From Candidatus Fermentibacterota bacterium (GTDB taxonomy: Bacteria; JAFGKV01), in contig JAFGKV010000027.1 of the NCBI GenBank assembly GCA_016928395.1, positions 1 to 6,713 of the forward strand: a stretch of 6,713 nucleotides of DNA, written 5' to 3'. The translations under genes were made by a program, and so were the position numbers. The stretch's first letter is position 1, and each line of letters begins with the position of its first letter. The notes under the pieces are model-generated. The model did not search any database, was not told the DNA's origin, and worked only from the letters and a program-made list of their open reading frames with translations. Shown piece after piece: positions 1-6,713 of this stretch.

Positions 1-18
1 CGAATCCCTCGTTTTGAC

Positions 19-92
19 CACTATTCTAAACTTAGAATAGCTCCCCGCACGGCACTGCCGCACCCAGTAACTTGCCATTTTACCAACGTCCC
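19..92 (+). repeat. Composite repeat E1, copy A (right end of an element lying mostly left of the window)
   Basis: The unit has two conserved blocks separated by 26 unconserved bases: a palindromic block (19-40) and a 26-bp block (67-92) that ends in ACCAACGTCCC. A second copy at 2854-2927 has the same two blocks at exactly the same spacing. The palindromic blocks match at 20 of 22 positions and the second blocks at 25 of 26, while the sequence between them differs. The outer edge is the inverse complement of GGGACGTTGGT found at 6637. I read this as the right end of a mobile element. The element body would lie left of base 1 and cannot be seen. Confidence 0.8.
21..40. promoter_or_regulatory. 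Palindrome, 9-bp perfect arms with 2-bp centre
   Basis: CTATTCTAA (21-29), AC, TTAGAATAG (32-40) is a perfect inverted repeat. The same arms recur at 2856-2875. The symmetry suits a dimeric DNA-binding protein or a transposase site. TAGAAT inside it resembles a -10 box, but no -35 sits at proper spacing on either strand. The role is unknown, and the site belongs to the repeat rather than to the following gene alone. Confidence 0.6.
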
Positions 93-183
93 GCTGGTCT
101 CCCACCAGATCCGGGTCTCTTGGGGATCCGATATGGGCAGTTCCTCCAGCGAAGCACTTCTCAGGACTTGATGTGAAACGTCG

Positions 184-1323
184 ATGATGATTGGCCCTGG
201 CACCAACGATCCAGAGTCCGCGGTCGCCGGCCTTGCGGCACGTTACCCGGAGAAGACCTCCTATCTCGGCCGCGTGTTCAACGACACCACGAACTCCTAC
301 AAGCTCATCTGGTTCCTGGCCATTCTCTCGCTGCTTCGTCGGAACGAGAGCACGTCATTCTCCCTGCCGGAGCTGTTCGCCGAGATGGGCACGATCGCCT
401 GGCACCCAGTGTGCCTCTACAGGCTCTCCCTCGGGCGGCAGGACAAACTCCAGGACGCGGTGCGAGAGATACGGTCTCGTTCGAGCCTCCCCGCCAACGC
501 AACGCCGGGTTCGGTGCGAACGTTCGTGCTGGAGTCCGAGGAGGCGGGCAGGAGCCTCGACTTCATACGGAACTACGTGCCGGCGCGTTTCCTCGCGCCG
601 TGGTTCGCCGAGGAACTTCGCGGCCACAAGGACTCCGTGCGCAACCGGCTCATAGCAGAACTGGCTGCGTCGAGCCAGCACACCTCGTCAGCCTGCCCCT
701 ACTGGCTCGGCGACGGGCGCATCCACCTCAACGAGTCGTGGCGGGCGTTCCTCCTCGAGAACATTGCGATGGTGGAGGCATTCGCCGAGTACCACTTCGC
801 CCACTACCTGCAGGTGCGGAATCCGAACGTGCCCGGCATCGTGAACAAGCTCCGCGCACCGGTTGCCCGGCAGCTCGGGGATGCGCGGCGATTCTGGAGG
901 CTGGTGCGTCACGGTTTTGAACAGTCCGGGAAGGCGGACCTCTTCGGGGATATCTATGCGGGACGCCCACTGGGCGACGACTTCGCGATTGACCATTTCC
1001 TGCCCTGGAGTTTCGCGCTCCACGACCTGCTCTGGAACCTCACGCCAGTCGAATCTGGAACCAACTCCAGCAAGAGCGATTCCCTTCCCGACATCGAGCT
1101 CTATCTGCCCCGGCTTGCCCGGCTGCACTTTGAGGTCGTCGAGACGATGCAGAGTCACCCAAGGCTGCTCGAAGACCACACCGACTGCTTCAAGCTCGAG
1201 CCCAGTGATCTTCTGGCTCTCGGGGAGGACGGACTGACAGCGAAGTACCGGGAAGTGGTGATCCCACAAGCCCAAATCGCGATGAATCAGGGCTTCCCGT
1301 CCGGGTGGGCGTTCAGGGAGTGA
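184..1323 (+). CDS. HNH endonuclease-like protein, possible defence nuclease
   Basis: The 379-aa protein carries a C-terminal HNH (beta-beta-alpha metal) nuclease motif. Asp270-His271 lie in the segment AIDHFLPWSF, Asn285 lies in LLWNLTPV, and a third element, NSSKSDSLP, spans about 294-302 with Asn294 and Lys297. This order and spacing match HNH enzymes that cut DNA with one metal ion, including the Cas9-type HNH arrangement. The first 260 residues look mainly helical (for example YKLIWFLAILSLLRR around residue 40) and show no domain I recognise; they may give target recognition or partner binding. The start is ATG 184, directly followed by a second ATG at 187, because an in-frame stop lies at 169-171. 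No strong Shine-Dalgarno sequence is visible. It is the first gene of a three-gene unit and its stop overlaps the next start. The HNH call is firm; the substrate and the defence role are inferred from context. Confidence 0.85.
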   Translation: MMIGPGTNDPESAVAGLAARYPEKTSYLGRVFNDTTNSYKLIWFLAILSLLRRNESTSFSLPELFAEMGTIAWHPVCLYRLSLGRQDKLQDAVREIRSRSSLPANATPGSVRTFVLESEEAGRSLDFIRNYVPARFLAPWFAEELRGHKDSVRNRLIAELAASSQHTSSACPYWLGDGRIHLNESWRAFLLENIAMVEAFAEYHFAHYLQVRNPNVPGIVNKLRAPVARQLGDARRFWRLVRHGFEQSGKADLFGDIYAGRPLGDDFAIDHFLPWSFALHDLLWNLTPVESGTNSSKSDSLPDIELYLPRLARLHFEVVETMQSHPRLLEDHTDCFKLEPSDLLALGEDGLTAKYREVVIPQAQIAMNQGFPSGWAFRE

Positions 1324-1805
1324 GCCTCGACGTGACGACCTTCGGAGCAATCGAGCAAGACCTGATCCTTGCCGAGGATGACTTGTTCATCGTCGCGCGA
1401 GACAAGTTCCCCGTCTCGCCGGGACATACGCTGGTCATCGTGCGACGTGTCGTATCGCGATTTCTCGACCTGACTGCGGAGGAGAAGACCCGGCTGCTGC
1501 GGTGGATCGACTGGTCTGTCGCTCACCTGCAGAACACCCTGAATCCACGCCCCGACGGCTTCAACATCGGACTGAACGACGGGCCCGCAGCCGGCCAGAC
1601 CATCGCCCAGCTTCACGTCCACATCATCCCCCGCTACAGGGGTGACATCCCCGATCCCCGCGGCGGCGTCCGCCACGTGATCCCCCAGAAGGCCAAGTAT
1701 TGGTCGGATGACATGACCGCCGATCTCCATGATCCAGTTCACCTCAGAGAAGACCGCGTCAGTCTCAGACAGGACGGACAGCATGACCACGTTATTCGGA
1801 GTTGA
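1320..1805 (+). CDS. HIT-family (histidine triad) protein
   Basis: HIT proteins are nucleotide-binding hydrolases or transferases that act on the alpha-phosphate of nucleotide conjugates. The core runs from FGAIEQDLILAEDDLF through KFPVSPGHTLVIVRR and ends in the signature QLHVHIIPRYRGD, followed by DPRGGVRHVIPQKAKYW. The two visible histidines are encoded at 1614 and 1620. The first position of the canonical triad is Gln instead of His, which I believe is normal in this HIT subfamily. The start is uncertain. GTG 1320 overlaps the HNH stop as GTGA. GTG 1332 lies 11 bases after AGGGAG (1315-1320) and fits the family N-terminus better. GTG 1305 is also in frame. Family members normally end near the AKYW segment, but here 33 further residues follow and overlap the DUF429 start by 23 bases. 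The gene is co-transcribed with its neighbours. Confidence 0.88.
   Translation: MSLDVTTFGAIEQDLILAEDDLFIVARDKFPVSPGHTLVIVRRVVSRFLDLTAEEKTRLLRWIDWSVAHLQNTLNPRPDGFNIGLNDGPAAGQTIAQLHVHIIPRYRGDIPDPRGGVRHVIPQKAKYWSDDMTADLHDPVHLREDRVSLRQDGQHDHVIRS
1771..1777 (+). promoter_or_regulatory. Ribosome binding site deciding the DUF429 start
   Basis: AGGACGG lies five bases before ATG 1783, inside the HIT coding sequence. It favours this ATG over an in-frame ATG at 1729, which would lengthen the overlap and add 18 residues with no family homology. Confidence 0.6.
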
Positions 1806-2484
1806 TTGTGCTACGGTCCCCAGGAAGACTGGCCTCGCCCTCGGAGAGTTGTCCGGGGAGATAGTACGAATCACCAAGTGTCGCACAGCCTCTGCCAAGG
1901 AGCCGCCCGCGGTTATTGCTGCGGATTGGCTCAGTACCCACGAGCGAGTGATTATCGCTATTGACGCCCCGCTGGGATGGCCAGTAGGGCTCCGGAAGGG
2001 TATTGGGGAGCACAGCGCGGGGGACCCTCTGTCAGTCTGTGCAGATGAGATGTTTCGCCGGGCCACGGACCTGGAGATCGAGGAAAGACTTGGAAAGAGA
2101 CCCCTGGAGGTTGGGGCAAACCTGATCGCCCGAACTGCTGCGGCCGCCCTCGGGTTTCTCGAAGAACTCCGCAACCGGACCGGCCGTGAGATCCCGATTG
2201 CCTGGGACCCCGATCAAGAGGATGCCTGGCGCGCCATTGAAGTATACCCTGCGGCTACTCGCATCGGGCACGGTGCACCTGATCGCGGAGGCAGCCTCAA
2301 CGGGCTGGGCAGGCTGCTGGATTGCACCGGTCTTCCAGCGAAGGCACTCAAGTCGAAAGACGCCGTCGACGCAACGGTGTGTGCGCTTGCGGCTGCCGAC
2401 TTCCTACGTGGCCGATCAGTCGCGCCCGTCGACGTTGACACTGCTCGTATTGAAGGCTGGATCTGGGCGCCGCGGGCAAGGTGA
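1783..2484 (+). CDS. DUF429 family protein, predicted RNase H-like nuclease
   Basis: The 233-aa protein shows the DUF429 pattern: an N-terminal strand FGVDCA with Asp8, the segment IIAIDAPLGWP with Asp61, EVYPAATRIG with Glu153, and the C-terminal helix KSKDAVDATVCALAAADFL with Asp193 and Asp196. DUF429 is predicted to have an RNase H-like fold with acidic residues coordinating metal, so a nuclease is the usual guess; no substrate is established to my knowledge. The length is normal for the family, and the end (GWIWAP) looks complete. ATG 1783 is chosen because of the AGGACGG site just upstream. The gene overlaps the HIT gene by 23 bases, suggesting coupled translation. Only 12 bases separate its stop from the repeat that starts near 2497. 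Several members occur in genomic islands; a role shared with the HNH protein is inferred. Confidence 0.85.
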   Translation: MTTLFGVDCATVPRKTGLALGELSGEIVRITKCRTASAKEPPAVIAADWLSTHERVIIAIDAPLGWPVGLRKGIGEHSAGDPLSVCADEMFRRATDLEIEERLGKRPLEVGANLIARTAAAALGFLEELRNRTGREIPIAWDPDQEDAWRAIEVYPAATRIGHGAPDRGGSLNGLGRLLDCTGLPAKALKSKDAVDATVCALAAADFLRGRSVAPVDVDTARIEGWIWAPRAR

Positions 2485-2496
2485 TCAGGGGCACGG

Positions 2497-2576
2497 CCTA
2501 TGGACTTAGGCAAAGCGCCAACTTACGGGGAACCGCAGGCGCCGATTCGGAAGTTGCCGAACGTGAATCTGCGCTG
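2497..2576 (+). repeat. Repeat E2, copy in the internal element
   Basis: The 58 bases at 2519-2576 align without gaps to 6655-6712 at 48 of 58 positions. The alignment continues more weakly to the left, to about 2497. Shared pieces include CAACTT, CGGGG, GCAGGCGCCG, AAGTTGCCGAACG and TCTGCGCTG. CAACTT (2519-2524) and AAGTTG (2551-2556) form a short inverted repeat around the self-complementary GGCGCC, so a stem-loop is possible. It follows the DUF429 gene by 12 bases, as the other copy follows the last gene of the window. Confidence 0.75.
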
Positions 2577-2621
2577 TGGAGCGGGCACGTAGCCGCTGCG
2601 CGGCAGCTCTCAGCCAGCCGA

Positions 2622-2709
2622 CTCCTTTCCCTCTTCACCTCCCTACTTCTTCACCTCTTCGCCCCTTGACTTCTTCATCTCCTCACTCTTTACTCCTATC
2701 TCCTCACTC
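2622..2709 (+). repeat. Pyrimidine-rich tract with short imperfect repeats
   Basis: Of 88 bases only 11 are purines. CTTCACCTC occurs at 2633 and 2649, the variant CTTCATCTC at 2673, and the exact 12-mer ATCTCCTCACTC at 2677 and 2698. The tract looks like a decayed array of short repeats. It could serve as an unstructured leader or as a region of unusual DNA structure. It ends just before an AAGGA site. Confidence 0.6.
2666..2694 (+). promoter_or_regulatory. Possible sigma-70-type promoter
   Basis: TTGACT (2666-2671) and TTTACT (2689-2694) are separated by 17 bases. They are followed by AAGGA (2711-2715) and ATG (2726). The -35 is good and the -10 matches the consensus at four of six positions. 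It sits inside a pyrimidine-rich tract, so chance is possible. If active, it could drive the Res fragment and the two genes behind it. Confidence 0.35.
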
Positions 2710-2725
2710 AAAGGACACCTTCACC

Positions 2726-2875
2726 ATGGGGCCGTGATGGATACGATCGGATCGCACATCCTCCTCTCCCGCTCGAGGCGGCGATCCGGTGTACCCGCCG
2801 GGGGATTCGCCTGCTCATGCCACGTATTCGGCGAAGCCGGGGCCGATACTGCCCACTATTCTAAGGTTAGAATAG
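2726..2875 (+). pseudogene. Remnant of a small reading frame broken by an early stop
   Basis: AAGGA at 2711-2715 precedes ATG 2726 by ten bases, a good initiation signal, but the frame reads Met-Gly-Pro-stop (TGA 2735-2737). The same frame is then open to TAG 2873-2875, which lies inside the large palindrome and ends in codons for PTILRLE. In copy A the equivalent palindrome is also closed by an in-frame TAG (38-40) after TTILNLE, so the E1 palindrome may once have held the end of a coding sequence. The product is unknown. The open stretch is short and may be chance. Confidence 0.25.
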
Positions 2876-4248
2876 TGGGTTTCGGAGGCCATACTCGATC
2901 GGTAACTTACCATTTTACCAACGTCCCTAGTTCCACTGAAGTGGTCAATGTGCTGACCGTGGTCGCCAACGAGAGTTTCTCCGCGTTCGCAAACGGGCTC
3001 CAGCGAGAGTATGTTGAGGCTGGAGATGCCCCGCCGCCATTGCCCACCGATGCGAAGCGGCGAAGGCAAGCCAAGCGCAACGATCGGATCTACCTCGACG
3101 ATCCGCACTTCCAGCGTTTCTGGAGTCAGCTCAACCGGCTTGTTCGCTACCGCATCCGCGTCGTCACCCCGGAACTGGTTGACGCGTGTGTCAAAAGGCT
3201 CAACGACAGCCCCTTCCCGGTTCGCACCCTTGCCGTCGAGAAGGGCAGGATCAACCTCGGGGCGTACAAGGTACACGTTGATCGAGTTGAATCCGGAAAG
3301 GCCCAGCTCACGCTCACGCTGTTCGACGATGAGGGGGAGCCCGTCGTGCATCAGAGGCGTTTCAAACCGGGTGACGACATCGCAAGGGAGCTGCACGAGG
3401 ATCGTCTTCGACCTCTTGGAGCTCTCGATATTGAGCAGGCGGGGGGCTCCTACGACGTTGTCTTCACCTCTCTTGCCAGGCGCGTCAGCGAGGGTGAGGA
3501 GTGGGAGTTCACACCGACCGGATTCGGCGCTACCGCCCAGAAGCAGATCGTGCAGGTGGAGGCCCGCCGTTATCCGGTGTTCAACCTGATTGACCGCGCA
3601 TCACGGGATACAGGGATCACGCGGCCCACGGTCAATGCGATCTTCAAAGGCATGCGCAATGACAAGAAGCGCCTCATCTTCGAGAATCCGGAGGGCTTCG
3701 CCACCGTCTTCATCGGCGAACTCCGGAACGCGCTGGCCGACCACATCACCGAGCGAATCGAGTTTGTCGTTGACGCCGGGGTCGGGCGGTTCGACCGCGA
3801 TGAGCTTTTCCCGCAAGTATGTGAGCATCCCCAGAGGGAACTCATCGAAGCCGGCGAGCATGGGCTGTACGACTTGGTCCAGAAGGATTCAGAGGTCGAA
3901 CAGCACTACGTCGATGCGATCCGACATGAAGGGGACTCCATCGTTTTCTACTTCAAGTTCCCGCCGAAGTTCAAGATCGATCTTCCGCGGCTCATCGGCG
4001 ACTACAACCCCGACTGGGGCATCGCCCGGATCCACCGCAATGGCGACATGGAGGTCCGCACCTTCGTCCACGAAACCAAGGGCACAACGCAGATCGGCAA
4101 GCTCCGCTTCCCTCACGAGAAGCGGAAAGTACGGTGCGCCGAGAAGTACTTCGCCACCATCGGCGTCAACTACCAGACCATCGACCCGAGTCACGTCGGC
4201 GCCTGGTGGGCGACCTCCGCCGAACGTGGCGTACAGACTGAGATGTAG
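2734..4248 (+). CDS. Type III restriction enzyme Res subunit, C-terminal half (helicase part missing)
   Basis: From about residue 68 onward the protein matches the part of type III Res subunits that follows the last helicase motif, starting at VNVLTVVANESFSAFA. The C-terminal nuclease core is intact: Asp427 in YNPDWG, Glu447 and Lys449 in HETKGT, then EKRKVRCAEKYF. These are the PD-(D/E)XK residues that cut DNA. A complete Res has nearly 1000 residues, with a Walker A and DEAD/DEAH helicase in front; none of this is present, and no mod methyltransferase gene is in the window. The first 67 or so residues are encoded by the adjoining element and resemble nothing. GTG 2734 is only the first start in the open frame, and GTG 2941 could begin a product containing the true homology alone. 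ATP-driven cleavage is not expected, so it is probably a pseudogene or a stand-alone nuclease fragment. The next gene begins 14 bases downstream. Confidence 0.85.
   Translation: MMDTIGSHILLSRSRRRSGVPAGGFACSCHVFGEAGADTAHYSKVRIVGFGGHTRSVTYHFTNVPSSTEVVNVLTVVANESFSAFANGLQREYVEAGDAPPPLPTDAKRRRQAKRNDRIYLDDPHFQRFWSQLNRLVRYRIRVVTPELVDACVKRLNDSPFPVRTLAVEKGRINLGAYKVHVDRVESGKAQLTLTLFDDEGEPVVHQRRFKPGDDIARELHEDRLRPLGALDIEQAGGSYDVVFTSLARRVSEGEEWEFTPTGFGATAQKQIVQVEARRYPVFNLIDRASRDTGITRPTVNAIFKGMRNDKKRLIFENPEGFATVFIGELRNALADHITERIEFVVDAGVGRFDRDELFPQVCEHPQRELIEAGEHGLYDLVQKDSEVEQHYVDAIRHEGDSIVFYFKFPPKFKIDLPRLIGDYNPDWGIARIHRNGDMEVRTFVHETKGTTQIGKLRFPHEKRKVRCAEKYFATIGVNYQTIDPSHVGAWWATSAERGVQTEM
2852..2879. promoter_or_regulatory. 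Perfect palindrome, 13-bp arms with GG centre
   Basis: CCCACTATTCTAA (2852-2864), GG, TTAGAATAGTGGG (2867-2879) form a perfect inverted repeat. The central 22 bases match the palindrome at 19-40, but the arms here are four bases longer on each side. It could be an operator, a transposase site or a cruciform/hairpin. It is too long and too perfect to be ordinary background. There is no T-run, so it is not a standard terminator. Confidence 0.75.
2854..2927 (+). repeat. Composite repeat E1, copy B
   Basis: The palindromic block is followed, after 26 unconserved bases, by a 26-bp block at 2902-2927 that differs from copy A (67-92) at one position. Inside the block, GGTAA-C-TTACC (2901-2911) is itself palindromic, and TTACCA appears twice, eight bases apart. 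The right edge lies about 14 bases before Res homology starts. Confidence 0.8.
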
Positions 4249-4262
4249 GGGAGAAGCGCGCC

Positions 4263-6116
4263 GTGGCGAAATCCTCTCCCACGCCCTCCAGCAGCGAAGA
4301 GCAGCCAACCAAACTGACTCCCTTCGCGCAGAGCCTGCTTGACGTCTTCGAAGACAGCCTCCGCTCAACCCTGCACTTCGGAGCCCTCGGCGAGCACCTG
4401 GTGTCGGAATCGGGGCTGGCGGTATCGCGTCTAGAATACGTACTCCGTCATTGCCATTGCCTCGCGGGGCTATCGAAGGAGAACCCCGGCATCGGCCTCT
4501 CATCACGCTGCAGATTCCCGAGCCAGGCCGGTGAGGGAGGACTGGCATGGAAGGGTTTGGGCCGCCTCTCCGGGCTCGAAGTATGCCAATCGTGGTCAGT
4601 GCTCCTGAACATCGGGCACCTTTTCGGTACCTTCGCGACTGAACGCGGTCTGCTCTTTCAGCTCGACAAGGACTTAGACGCGAGAGACGGATTCCTTGGA
4701 GGCGCCTGTTCCCACTTCGAGGGTCAGGCTGGCGATGTCCGAAAGATGGGAGAGGAGCTGCTAGACCGAGCACAGCTGTACCGATTCCACTATCTCCTTG
4801 CTCTTTGGCGGTTGAGAGCAGACAACAACCTGCCCGTGGACGACGCAATCCGCCGCAAGGCTGCACTGCTGGTACTTGCCTTCCTCTCTCCTCCAAGTGC
4901 AAAGCTGAGTCAACTGGCCCACATCTACCGGAAGACCCGAACGCTCGCATACCTTTCGCTTCATGCTGAGATCGGGGTAATGGAACCCCTCTGCAACGTG
5001 AAGGGGCTGCAGCGCTATCGGCAGCTCTTTCCGATCGACGCGATCCTGGAGGACAGCCTCGTCGAACCTGGACAATGGAACCTCATCGAGGCAATGGATC
5101 TCTCGGATTCGGAGCGGCTTTTCAATGCCCCCGATGCGGCAGGCATCGTCCTTGCTCACGCCAGGCAATTCCGGCAGTGGTGGGATCAGCGAAGGGCGAA
5201 TGGCTCTTCCTTCGGAGCTCTCATCGATGAGGCGTTCGGGAAGCCAGACGACTGGCCCGGGGCGCCTGCGCGAGAACTCCAGCACTTCGGGCGTATCTAC
5301 CTGCCGTCACGAGTGGGCTGGCTCGAAGAGGTCAGACTCTGGAAACATGACGAGAGTCAGAACAACCCATGGCGAGACTCTGACTTCCTCGTAACGCCAC
5401 CTCAGCAGAGATCTGAGGGACTCCATCTGGACCTGTACGCGGGGGCCTCTGGGATGAGTATCCAGACGGCCCGGCACATCACACTGCAGCTTTCTCGAGC
5501 CCTCTCATTCAGTCCAGAAGGGCAGTCAATGCGCAGGCTATGGATGACCACCGCGCGGTTCGTCGCCAAGGTCTTCCAGGGGTGCCTCAAGCCCGAATAT
5601 TCCCTGCGGCTCACGCCCCTCGAGGCTAGAGGAGATCACCTTGGGTACGGTACGGCCGGTTCGAGCTACGAACTGGCCCGTGGATTCGTCAAACGTTTCC
5701 TTGTAGAGTGCACCGATCCTCAGCGGACGATGGAGTTGAGACAACTTCTCGCCATCGGGGACAGGGATGAGTTCTGGCGGGTGCCTGCTCTCATCATGAT
5801 GGCACGGGCAGAAGTCATCAGCTCCGACGGGCAGTCGATAACCGATCTCGATGGGCTCCTTGGGAAGTTCCAGGGAGACTCGTTGGTCTGGACGGTTGTG
5901 GAGACCAAGAAATCGCCCACTCGAGGGGGCAAGACACAACTGCGGGATCGTGCAGATATCTACCTTGCTGTCGAACGAAGCTCCGAGGTCGAGGTGGTGA
6001 TCAATAGACAACACGTGCAATGGTTCACGGCCATATCCCCTGACCCAATCGCGTCAAGGCTATCCGGCGAGTGTGTGATTCCTGGGAGCACCGCGAAACG
6101 AGAGGAGGATCCATGA
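4263..6116 (+). CDS. Unrecognised 617-aa protein with PD-(D/E)XK-like C-terminal motif
   Basis: I do not recognise the family. GTG 4263 follows GGGGAG (4248-4253) by nine bases, a good site that partly overlaps the Res stop codon. The first 30 residues are Ser/Thr/Pro/Glu-rich and probably disordered. The body looks mostly helical; a conspicuous segment is WSVLLNIGHLFGTFATERG beginning at Trp111. No signal peptide or membrane segment is evident, so it is likely cytoplasmic. Near the C-terminus (residues 527-560), Asp528 and Asp530 in TDLDGLL, then Glu547-Thr-Lys549 in VVETKKS, then Gln559 in KTQL, match the order of a PD-(D/E)XK nuclease core (acid, ExK, Gln). That similarity is by eye only. 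It overlaps the EVE-like gene by ATGA and follows the Res fragment closely, so the three were probably one operon with a restriction or defence role. The helical part might bind a partner or the target. Confidence 0.8.
   Translation: MAKSSPTPSSSEEQPTKLTPFAQSLLDVFEDSLRSTLHFGALGEHLVSESGLAVSRLEYVLRHCHCLAGLSKENPGIGLSSRCRFPSQAGEGGLAWKGLGRLSGLEVCQSWSVLLNIGHLFGTFATERGLLFQLDKDLDARDGFLGGACSHFEGQAGDVRKMGEELLDRAQLYRFHYLLALWRLRADNNLPVDDAIRRKAALLVLAFLSPPSAKLSQLAHIYRKTRTLAYLSLHAEIGVMEPLCNVKGLQRYRQLFPIDAILEDSLVEPGQWNLIEAMDLSDSERLFNAPDAAGIVLAHARQFRQWWDQRRANGSSFGALIDEAFGKPDDWPGAPARELQHFGRIYLPSRVGWLEEVRLWKHDESQNNPWRDSDFLVTPPQQRSEGLHLDLYAGASGMSIQTARHITLQLSRALSFSPEGQSMRRLWMTTARFVAKVFQGCLKPEYSLRLTPLEARGDHLGYGTAGSSYELARGFVKRFLVECTDPQRTMELRQLLAIGDRDEFWRVPALIMMARAEVISSDGQSITDLDGLLGKFQGDSLVWTVVETKKSPTRGGKTQLRDRADIYLAVERSSEVEVVINRQHVQWFTAISPDPIASRLSGECVIPGSTAKREEDP
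6101..6108 (+). promoter_or_regulatory. Strong ribosome binding site of the EVE-like gene
   Basis: AGAGGAGG ends four bases before ATG 6113. It is the strongest Shine-Dalgarno sequence in the window and fixes this start over an in-frame ATG at 6071. It lies within the end of the preceding gene. Confidence 0.7.
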
Positions 6117-6529
6117 CAGGCTACTGGTTGGTCAACACGAACGAGAGGCATCGGCCAGACACGAAGGCGCACATGCTCGCCAACAGGTGCGTGTGCGCCC
6201 AGTACGACCCCAAGGTTGACATCGATCGAATCTCCGCAGGCGATGTCGTCTTCATCTATGAGAACGTCGTGGGCATCATCGGCTACGGCATCGCAGATGG
6301 CCGAATCATCATCAGAGACTACAAAGGGGAGCGGAACGAACAGCACGAGATGCGCCTCGACCAGTTCGAGGTTCTCCCGCAACCGATCACCCCTTCACAG
6401 ATCAGCGCGATCTCCTGGAATCTCGATAGAGCAGGGGTCTTTTACGCCCGCACCGTCGTCCCCTTGCGCGATCTTGCGGGCGCCGAACTGTACCGCATCG
6501 CCAAGGAGCTGATACGATCGGGCGACTGA
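6113..6529 (+). CDS. EVE/PUA-like domain protein, possible modified-base reader
   Basis: The 138-aa protein begins YWLVNTN and has the segment ISAGDVVFIYENVVGIIGYGIADGRI (residues 40-64), the strand-turn-strand pattern of small PUA-superfamily barrels (EVE, ASCH and relatives). EVE-type domains bind nucleic acids and in known cases read modified cytosines; they are often coupled to restriction enzymes or to ATPases. No enzyme motif is seen. The start ATG 6113 overlaps the previous stop as ATGA and has AGAGGAGG just upstream, so expression is coupled to the 617-aa protein. It is the last gene before the terminal repeat. I infer that it supplies target recognition for its neighbour. The fold assignment is moderate and the modified-base role is inference. 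Confidence 0.75.
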   Translation: MTGYWLVNTNERHRPDTKAHMLANRCVCAQYDPKVDIDRISAGDVVFIYENVVGIIGYGIADGRIIIRDYKGERNEQHEMRLDQFEVLPQPITPSQISAISWNLDRAGVFYARTVVPLRDLAGAELYRIAKELIRSGD

Positions 6530-6608
6530 CCGCTGAAGACGCCAGACCAACACGGATCATCAGCGCATGGAGGTACAACCCTATGACCATTCTGCGCGGA
6601 GCACCTGG

Positions 6609-6647
6609 GGGACGTTGGTGCAGAAAGCGGCTCCTAGGGACGTTGGT
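6609..6647 (+). repeat. Direct repeat of GGGACGTTGGT, two copies 28 bp apart
   Basis: GGGACGTTGGT occurs at 6609-6619 and 6637-6647. The second copy continues as AAAATG and joins E2. The 11-mer is the inverse complement of ACCAACGTCCC at the outer edge of both E1 copies. Repeated short sites near an end are typical of transposase-binding ends. Confidence 0.75.
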
Positions 6648-6713
6648 AAAATGTCAACTTCCGGGGTGTTGCAGGCGCCGGTTTCGAAGTTGCCGAACGA
6701 GAGTCTGCGCTGC
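6633..6713 (+). repeat. Repeat E2, copy C (left end of an element continuing past the window)
   Basis: It begins at about CCTAGGGACG and runs to the last base. The part at 6655-6712 matches 2519-2576 at 48 of 58 positions without gaps. Its left edge is the inverted counterpart of the E1 right edge (17 bp perfect against copies A and B). CAACTT (6655-6660) and AAGTTG (6687-6692) again bracket GGCGCC. The element body, if any, lies outside the window. Confidence 0.75.

Follow-up and report, generated by a model that had tools for sequence, protein, structure and literature searches.

Probable RAYT-mobilised elements with terminal inverted repeats among accessory genes of a Candidatus Fermentibacterota bacterium

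The repeats E1 and E2, which punctuate a 6,713-bp stretch of DNA (hereafter the window) from a Candidatus Fermentibacterota draft genome, very probably represent the opposite ends of non-autonomous elements, which a Y1/HUH REP-associated tyrosine transposase (RAYT) of the terminal-inverted-repeat (TIR) kind would mobilise in trans. Transposases of this kind are called 'TIRYT/TIRtron', and the one in question probably belongs to TnpA_REP subclass 2.1. The tidy pattern of genes between repeats in the window is the outcome of scattered insertions and of an assembly that breaks at repeats, and not a new gene-cassette system. A preliminary description had preferred insertions of one repeat-ended element family, and this preference is supported by ends of the same kind that flank Y1/HUH RAYT genes. 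The assignment draws on features read from sequence, namely the identity of the ends, their linkage to a RAYT gene, its catalytic residues, the truncation of a gene at an element edge, and window genes with no detectable match in a sister genome. Three genomes are distinguished below: the window's own genome (G000), the sister genome of the same genus (G001) and a family-level relative (G002).

Repeats E1 and E2 and their genomic copies

The order of features first proposed for the window (E1; HNH, HIT and DUF429 genes; E2...E1; a truncated type III restriction gene, a 617-aa ORF and an EVE-like ORF; E2) was confirmed by ORFs, Pfam and repeat comparison. The window opens with an E1-type end of an element running off the contig start (1-95, minus strand; terminal repeat at 76-92(-), with a palindrome inside at 18-40) and closes with an E2-type end of an element running off the contig end (6634-6713, plus strand; exact terminal repeat at 6637-6653). 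Between them, the sequence E2...E1 at 2498-2930 (plus strand) is best read as a complete 433-bp non-autonomous RAYT-TIR (TIRtron-derived) element without a transposase gene, with a decayed left repeat (2498(+)) and an intact right repeat (2930(-)). A collinear partial copy in the sister genome (G001:C109) retains this succession of E2 end, interior and palindrome, with 87% identity in its two conserved parts, and has no recognisable right edge.

The 17-bp edge GGGACGTTGGTAAAATG is present exactly at 76-92(-), at 2911-2927(-) as the terminal repeat at the right end of the middle element, and at 6637-6653(+), which makes three copies in the window versus 0.00 expected from shuffles. At these positions the E1 and E2 edges are 17-bp inverse complements, as had been described, but the description does not extend to the middle E2 edge (2500), which reads TGGACTTAGGCAAAGCG and has six mismatches to the 17-bp edge by direct comparison; a 17-mer search of the window at 3 mismatches gave no match there. 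The E2 copies (2497-2576 versus 6633-6712) are 79% identical across 80 nt, the E1 copies are 96% identical at the edge (67-92 versus 2902-2927) and 88% identical at the palindrome (15-40 versus 2850-2875), and E1 and E2 edges match each other in inverted orientation (for example, 55-92 with 6637-6674 at 84%). The middle element may be composite: past the edge, its two ends are of unlike subtype (E2 on the left, E1 on the right). Its fold has a whole-element z of -0.90 and no hairpin at the edges.

In the own genome the 17-mer is found 22 times when up to 2 mismatches are allowed, versus 1 for the reversed control, and the middle element has 51 partial matches. The edges are mostly single and lie in many unrelated places in both orientations; the full E2...E1 joint is found once, and on contig C170 an E1 and an E2 edge are about 60 bp apart and do not bound a gene unit. 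Only about 27 bases are common to the edge copies; beyond them the subterminal sequence varies, with E1, E2 and no fewer than two other types, a pattern that recognition of the edge alone would predict. Mosaic partial element copies are present in both G000 and G001. The exact TIR pattern had no match in named genomes, which is consistent with a lineage-restricted edge, and no empty site was recovered when the surroundings of the sister RAYT element and the whole window were compared with the relatives, the matches being repeat and RAYT fragments only.

Several further observations concern the sequences in and around the copies. At G000:C47 (1-97), an edge follows a fragment of an istB-like ATPase (LLILDEIGYTP, read by eye), suggesting insertion into an IS21-type element. 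Two inward-facing edges approximately 90 bp apart, resembling REPIN-like miniature elements, are found at G000:C52 (2867-2990) and at G002:C110 (5771-5856). In the own genome (C280, C10, C52 and C340), the sequence flanking the edge on its outer side is frequently AGCGGG(G)CTA, which may reflect a target preference. A second terminal-repeat-like motif, CTGGGGGACGTTGGTGCAGAAAGC (6606-6629, plus strand), lies directly beside E2, just outside it, and is identical in 22-24 bases at three places in G002. The stretch at 2600-2720 is a pyrimidine-rich tract with repeated CTTCACCTC-like units and many matches in the own genome.

The perfect palindrome within E1 of the middle element (2852-2879, no strand) belongs to a separate genomic palindrome family. 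Its core CTATTCTAANNTTAGAATAG (window 21-40 and 2856-2875; up to 2 mismatches) is found 81 times in the own genome, 68 times in G001, and not at all in G002 or for the reversed control. The flanking arms of the 45 sites read are complementary beyond between-site shuffles (172 pairs versus a mean of 125 and a maximum of 153 among 500). It has the appearance of a hairpin repeat or regulator site specific to the genus.

A RAYT transposase with ends of the same kind

The sister genome links these edges to a transposase gene. On contig G001:C235, a RAYT frame (1321-2325) lies between an edge at 1257(+), where the left terminal repeat is CTAGGCACGTAGGTAAAATGTCAACTTACG, and an inverted edge at 2353(-), a TIR-RAYT-TIR element of 1.1 kb; an E2 block (1161-1244, 83% identical to that of the window) is located about 13 bp upstream of it. 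The left edge of this element shares 27/30 bases with E2 of the window (6634-6663), 22-24/30 with the two E1 edges (24/30 with the right edge of the middle element), and 22/30 with its own right repeat. The protein matches Y1_Tnp (PF01797) above cutoff at 40.5 bits; its closest NCBIfam model is REP_Tyr_transpos, at 60.4 bits below the model cutoff of 80, and its C-terminus has a weak match to Bac_DnaA_C, a DnaA-like helix-turn-helix (17.7 bits, cutoff 31.5).

Eighty RAYT relatives, 48-56% identical, were collected from Desulfobacterota, Geobacter-like and Nitrospirae genomes, 76 of them with readable flanks. His59-x-His61 and Tyr118 are invariant across the 80 aligned RAYT sequences. Flanking inverted repeats better than all 50 shuffles were found in 70 of the 76, and these repeats nearly always start (TAG)GGGACG (for example GGGGACGCCCTTAACTTATTAACTT; that of relative L205, GGGACGTAGGTGAAAAAGTGAA, is near the window edge). 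Thus, the RAYT group has terminal inverted repeats of a single design, to which the E1 and E2 edges belong. G002:C241 has a decayed RAYT between inverted copies of GGGACGTTGGTGCAGAA, the motif type also present at window 6606-6629.

An intact RAYT of this group was not found in the own genome, which has decayed pieces only: one directly after an edge on C59 (77% identical over 39 residues, then interrupted) and a further one on C248. The intact gene may have been lost or may be unassembled. Any current mobility of the window elements is accordingly putative. The decayed left edge of the middle element (2498), the differing subtypes of its two ends and the absence of a recovered empty site also weigh against the RAYT-TIR interpretation.

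By analogy with HUH/Y1 enzymes (PMC6006769), we infer both transposition and the cleavage position. The RAYT would nick single-stranded DNA at the edge, between CTA and GGGACG (the putative cleavage edge reads CTA followed by GGGACGTTGGTAAAATGTCAACTT), and would join the element to a new site; with the edge alone recognised, the interiors would be free to vary. On this reading the window holds a single such element (2498-2930), together with an end of each of two others where the contig breaks, and the genes between them are accessory genes that happen to sit between insertions.

Accessory genes and contig breaks

The genes to the left of the middle element are a flanking accessory gene for a 379-aa HNH_4-domain protein (184-1323(+); Pfam PF13395, 34.1 bits; plasmid 'HNH endonuclease' genes are 30-34% identical), and accessory genes for a HIT-domain protein (1332-1805(+); PF01230, 75.5 bits) and a DUF429 protein (1789-2484(+); PF04250, 48.9 bits), the last of which has its stop at 2484, 13 bp before the element. 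To the right are a truncated type III restriction subunit, Res' (2931-4248(+); C-terminal about 438 aa; PF19778, 89.4 bits), a 617-aa ORF without a family (4263-6116(+)) and a 138-aa ORF (6113-6529(+)); the EVE label originally given to the latter is not upheld, as Pfam, NCBIfam and PADLOC do not recognise it. The 617-aa protein has no match in Pfam, NCBIfam, PADLOC, plasmids, phages, viral contigs or 385 other genomes; judged by eye alone, a VETKK stretch near its C-terminal end resembles motifs of nucleases. A comparison of the whole window with G001 matched the element segments and none of the window genes, and Rfam gave no match.

The alignment of Res' to a 1040-aa plasmid type III Res starts at the fifth residue of Res' and covers residues about 603-1028 of the plasmid protein, so that Res' is without about 600 N-terminal residues and is cut at the right edge of the element (2930). 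The frame reported by the ORF caller is 504 aa, with a start at 2734 inside the element and a first 66 residues that are element sequence. The search of solved structures gave a weak match only, to EcoP15I residues 851-945. A search of the rest of the own genome with the PADLOC profile, the N-terminal sensitivity of which is unchecked, did not recover the lost N-terminal portion. Because the right edge of the element abuts Res' at the point where its N-terminus is missing, the gene was apparently truncated by insertion of the middle element or by a later rearrangement; the loss of about 600 N-terminal codons would date from the insertion itself or from a subsequent deletion or recombination event at that edge.

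The preliminary description held that every gene unit is preceded by E1 and followed by E2, which is not confirmed by inspection of the contig. The window is the entire contig C255 (1-6713) of a draft genome of 343 contigs and 4.79 Mb, and both of its ends fall within multi-copy repeats; its outer frame therefore does not show how the genome is arranged. Of the 22 own-genome 17-mer copies counted at up to 2 mismatches, 9 are located no more than 250 bp from a contig end, versus 0.8 expected (P about 3e-8), and 6 run off their contig from inside the element. The most likely origin of the symmetric frame of E1, genes, genes and E2 is therefore that the assembler halted at repeats, and the frame does not mark gene-unit boundaries. 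There is only one complete E2...E1 element between genes in the window (2498-2930), so the proposed framing of each gene unit by E1 and E2 comes down to one internal element and two contig ends.

Comparison with known systems and alternative explanations

The window element is classed as a further member of the TIRtron type and not as a new kind. TIRtrons are RAYT-like genes between long TIRs, some with GGGGWSAS, accompanied by moderately abundant dispersed families of gene-less TIRs (Di Nocera et al. 2013, PMC3733652). Shared with them are a RAYT-like Y1 gene with conserved HUH and Tyr residues and the same ends, long inverted repeats starting GGG(G)AC instead of GTAG REPs, and dispersed gene-less TIR copies, single or as dimers. 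In contrast to TIRtrons, the edge here is CTAGGGACGTTGGTAAAATG... and not GGGGWSAS, and the non-autonomous copy is longer (433 bp), has a mosaic interior and comes from a sparsely sampled lineage. Letter for letter, GGGGWSAS is matched neither by the relatives, which often have GGGGACGY, nor by the window, which has CTAGGGACGT, the ends being GGGACG(T/C); this motif was reported for some TIRs only and is thus not defining for all members (PMC3733652). Many TnpA_REP proteins of subclass 2.1, which equals RAYT group 1 of Bertels, have Bac_DnaA_C-like domains (PMC6006769), and the sister RAYT combines an HUH-Y core with a candidate Bac_DnaA_C-like C-terminal region. Its assignment to the subclass follows from that below-cutoff match to Bac_DnaA_C (17.7 bits) together with the TIRs on either side, and not from a tree.

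Other short repeats share fewer features. REPINs and GTAG REPs have short inverted ends in pairs, with mobilisation attributed to a RAYT, but the edge CTAGGGACG lacks the GTAG tag and a conserved hairpin. MITEs are likewise short, gene-less and multicopy with inverted ends; unlike theirs, the linked transposase is Y1 and not DDE, and no target-site duplication is demonstrated here. Unlike canonical IS200/IS605 elements, which have subterminal hairpins and no inverted repeats, the present elements have inverted ends and no end hairpin in the fold. A relation to CGTC-tagged REPs (GGGACG being the complement of CGTCCC) was not adopted, as the published CGTC repeats are compact hairpins without a linked transposase (PMC3733652).

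Because the window has three same-orientation copies with differing gene blocks between them, and these blocks have no detected DNA match in G001 while the repeats are present there, the E2...E1 joint could be taken for a site-specific recombination site of a modular cassette system in which gene units are swapped. This reading, raised in the preliminary description, is scarcely credible: the edges are mostly solitary, in both orientations and in many unrelated places, a near-complete E2...palindrome unit occurs at another site in G001, the E1-E2 'unit' on C170 spans only about 60 bp, the window's outer edges fall where the contig breaks, and the same edges bound a transposase gene in G001. 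That last feature also led to rejection of an integron/attC origin; a repeated joint with varying genes, as in an integron-like array, was not found in the own genome, which has the full joint once, and no integrase gene was detected in the window by Pfam. A related notion, that RAYT-type elements with mismatched ends (E2 and E1) move accessory, possibly defence, genes lying between two copies, is highly improbable; if true, a domesticated-type HUH transposase would transpose or recombine blocks of accessory genes.

It is also quite unlikely that the repeats are ends of an ordinary DDE insertion sequence with a TA or CTAG target, its transposase hidden in unassembled gaps and its likeness to RAYT ends secondary. 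Some IS families have TA or YTAR target duplications, and the flanks here do read CTA...TAG; an entire IS might also be lost from the assembly, which breaks off at the repeats, and the own genome has a few PF01609 genes. Against this, the ends flank a RAYT gene in G001, 70 of the 76 RAYT relatives have ends of this class, and none of the four PF01609 matches of the own genome is at a listed edge, the one on C95 being about 1.5 kb from a copy. ORFs and Pfam revealed no DDE transposase in the window, the genome-wide search having covered PF01609 only. Joining of the gene blocks by homologous recombination between dispersed RAYT-type copies, which would make the window a rearranged island, is compatible with trans-mobilised RAYT-TIR elements and is a possibility of a lesser order, though not a far-fetched one. 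The cut of Res at the element edge, with the missing N-terminal part not found elsewhere, and the mosaic partial copies in G000 and G001 speak for it, but a second joint copy with swapped flanks was not found, and simple insertion plus deletion explains the truncation equally well.

With E1 and E2 read as ends of RAYT-mobilised elements, a known transposon class gains an unusual repeat family from a poorly sampled lineage of bacteria. The analysis also illustrates that draft assemblies can mimic cassette arrays through breakage at repeats. How RAYTs recognise terminal repeats has been left open (PMC3733652, PMC6006769), and the 80 RAYT genes with mostly readable ends are a usable set for asking this question.
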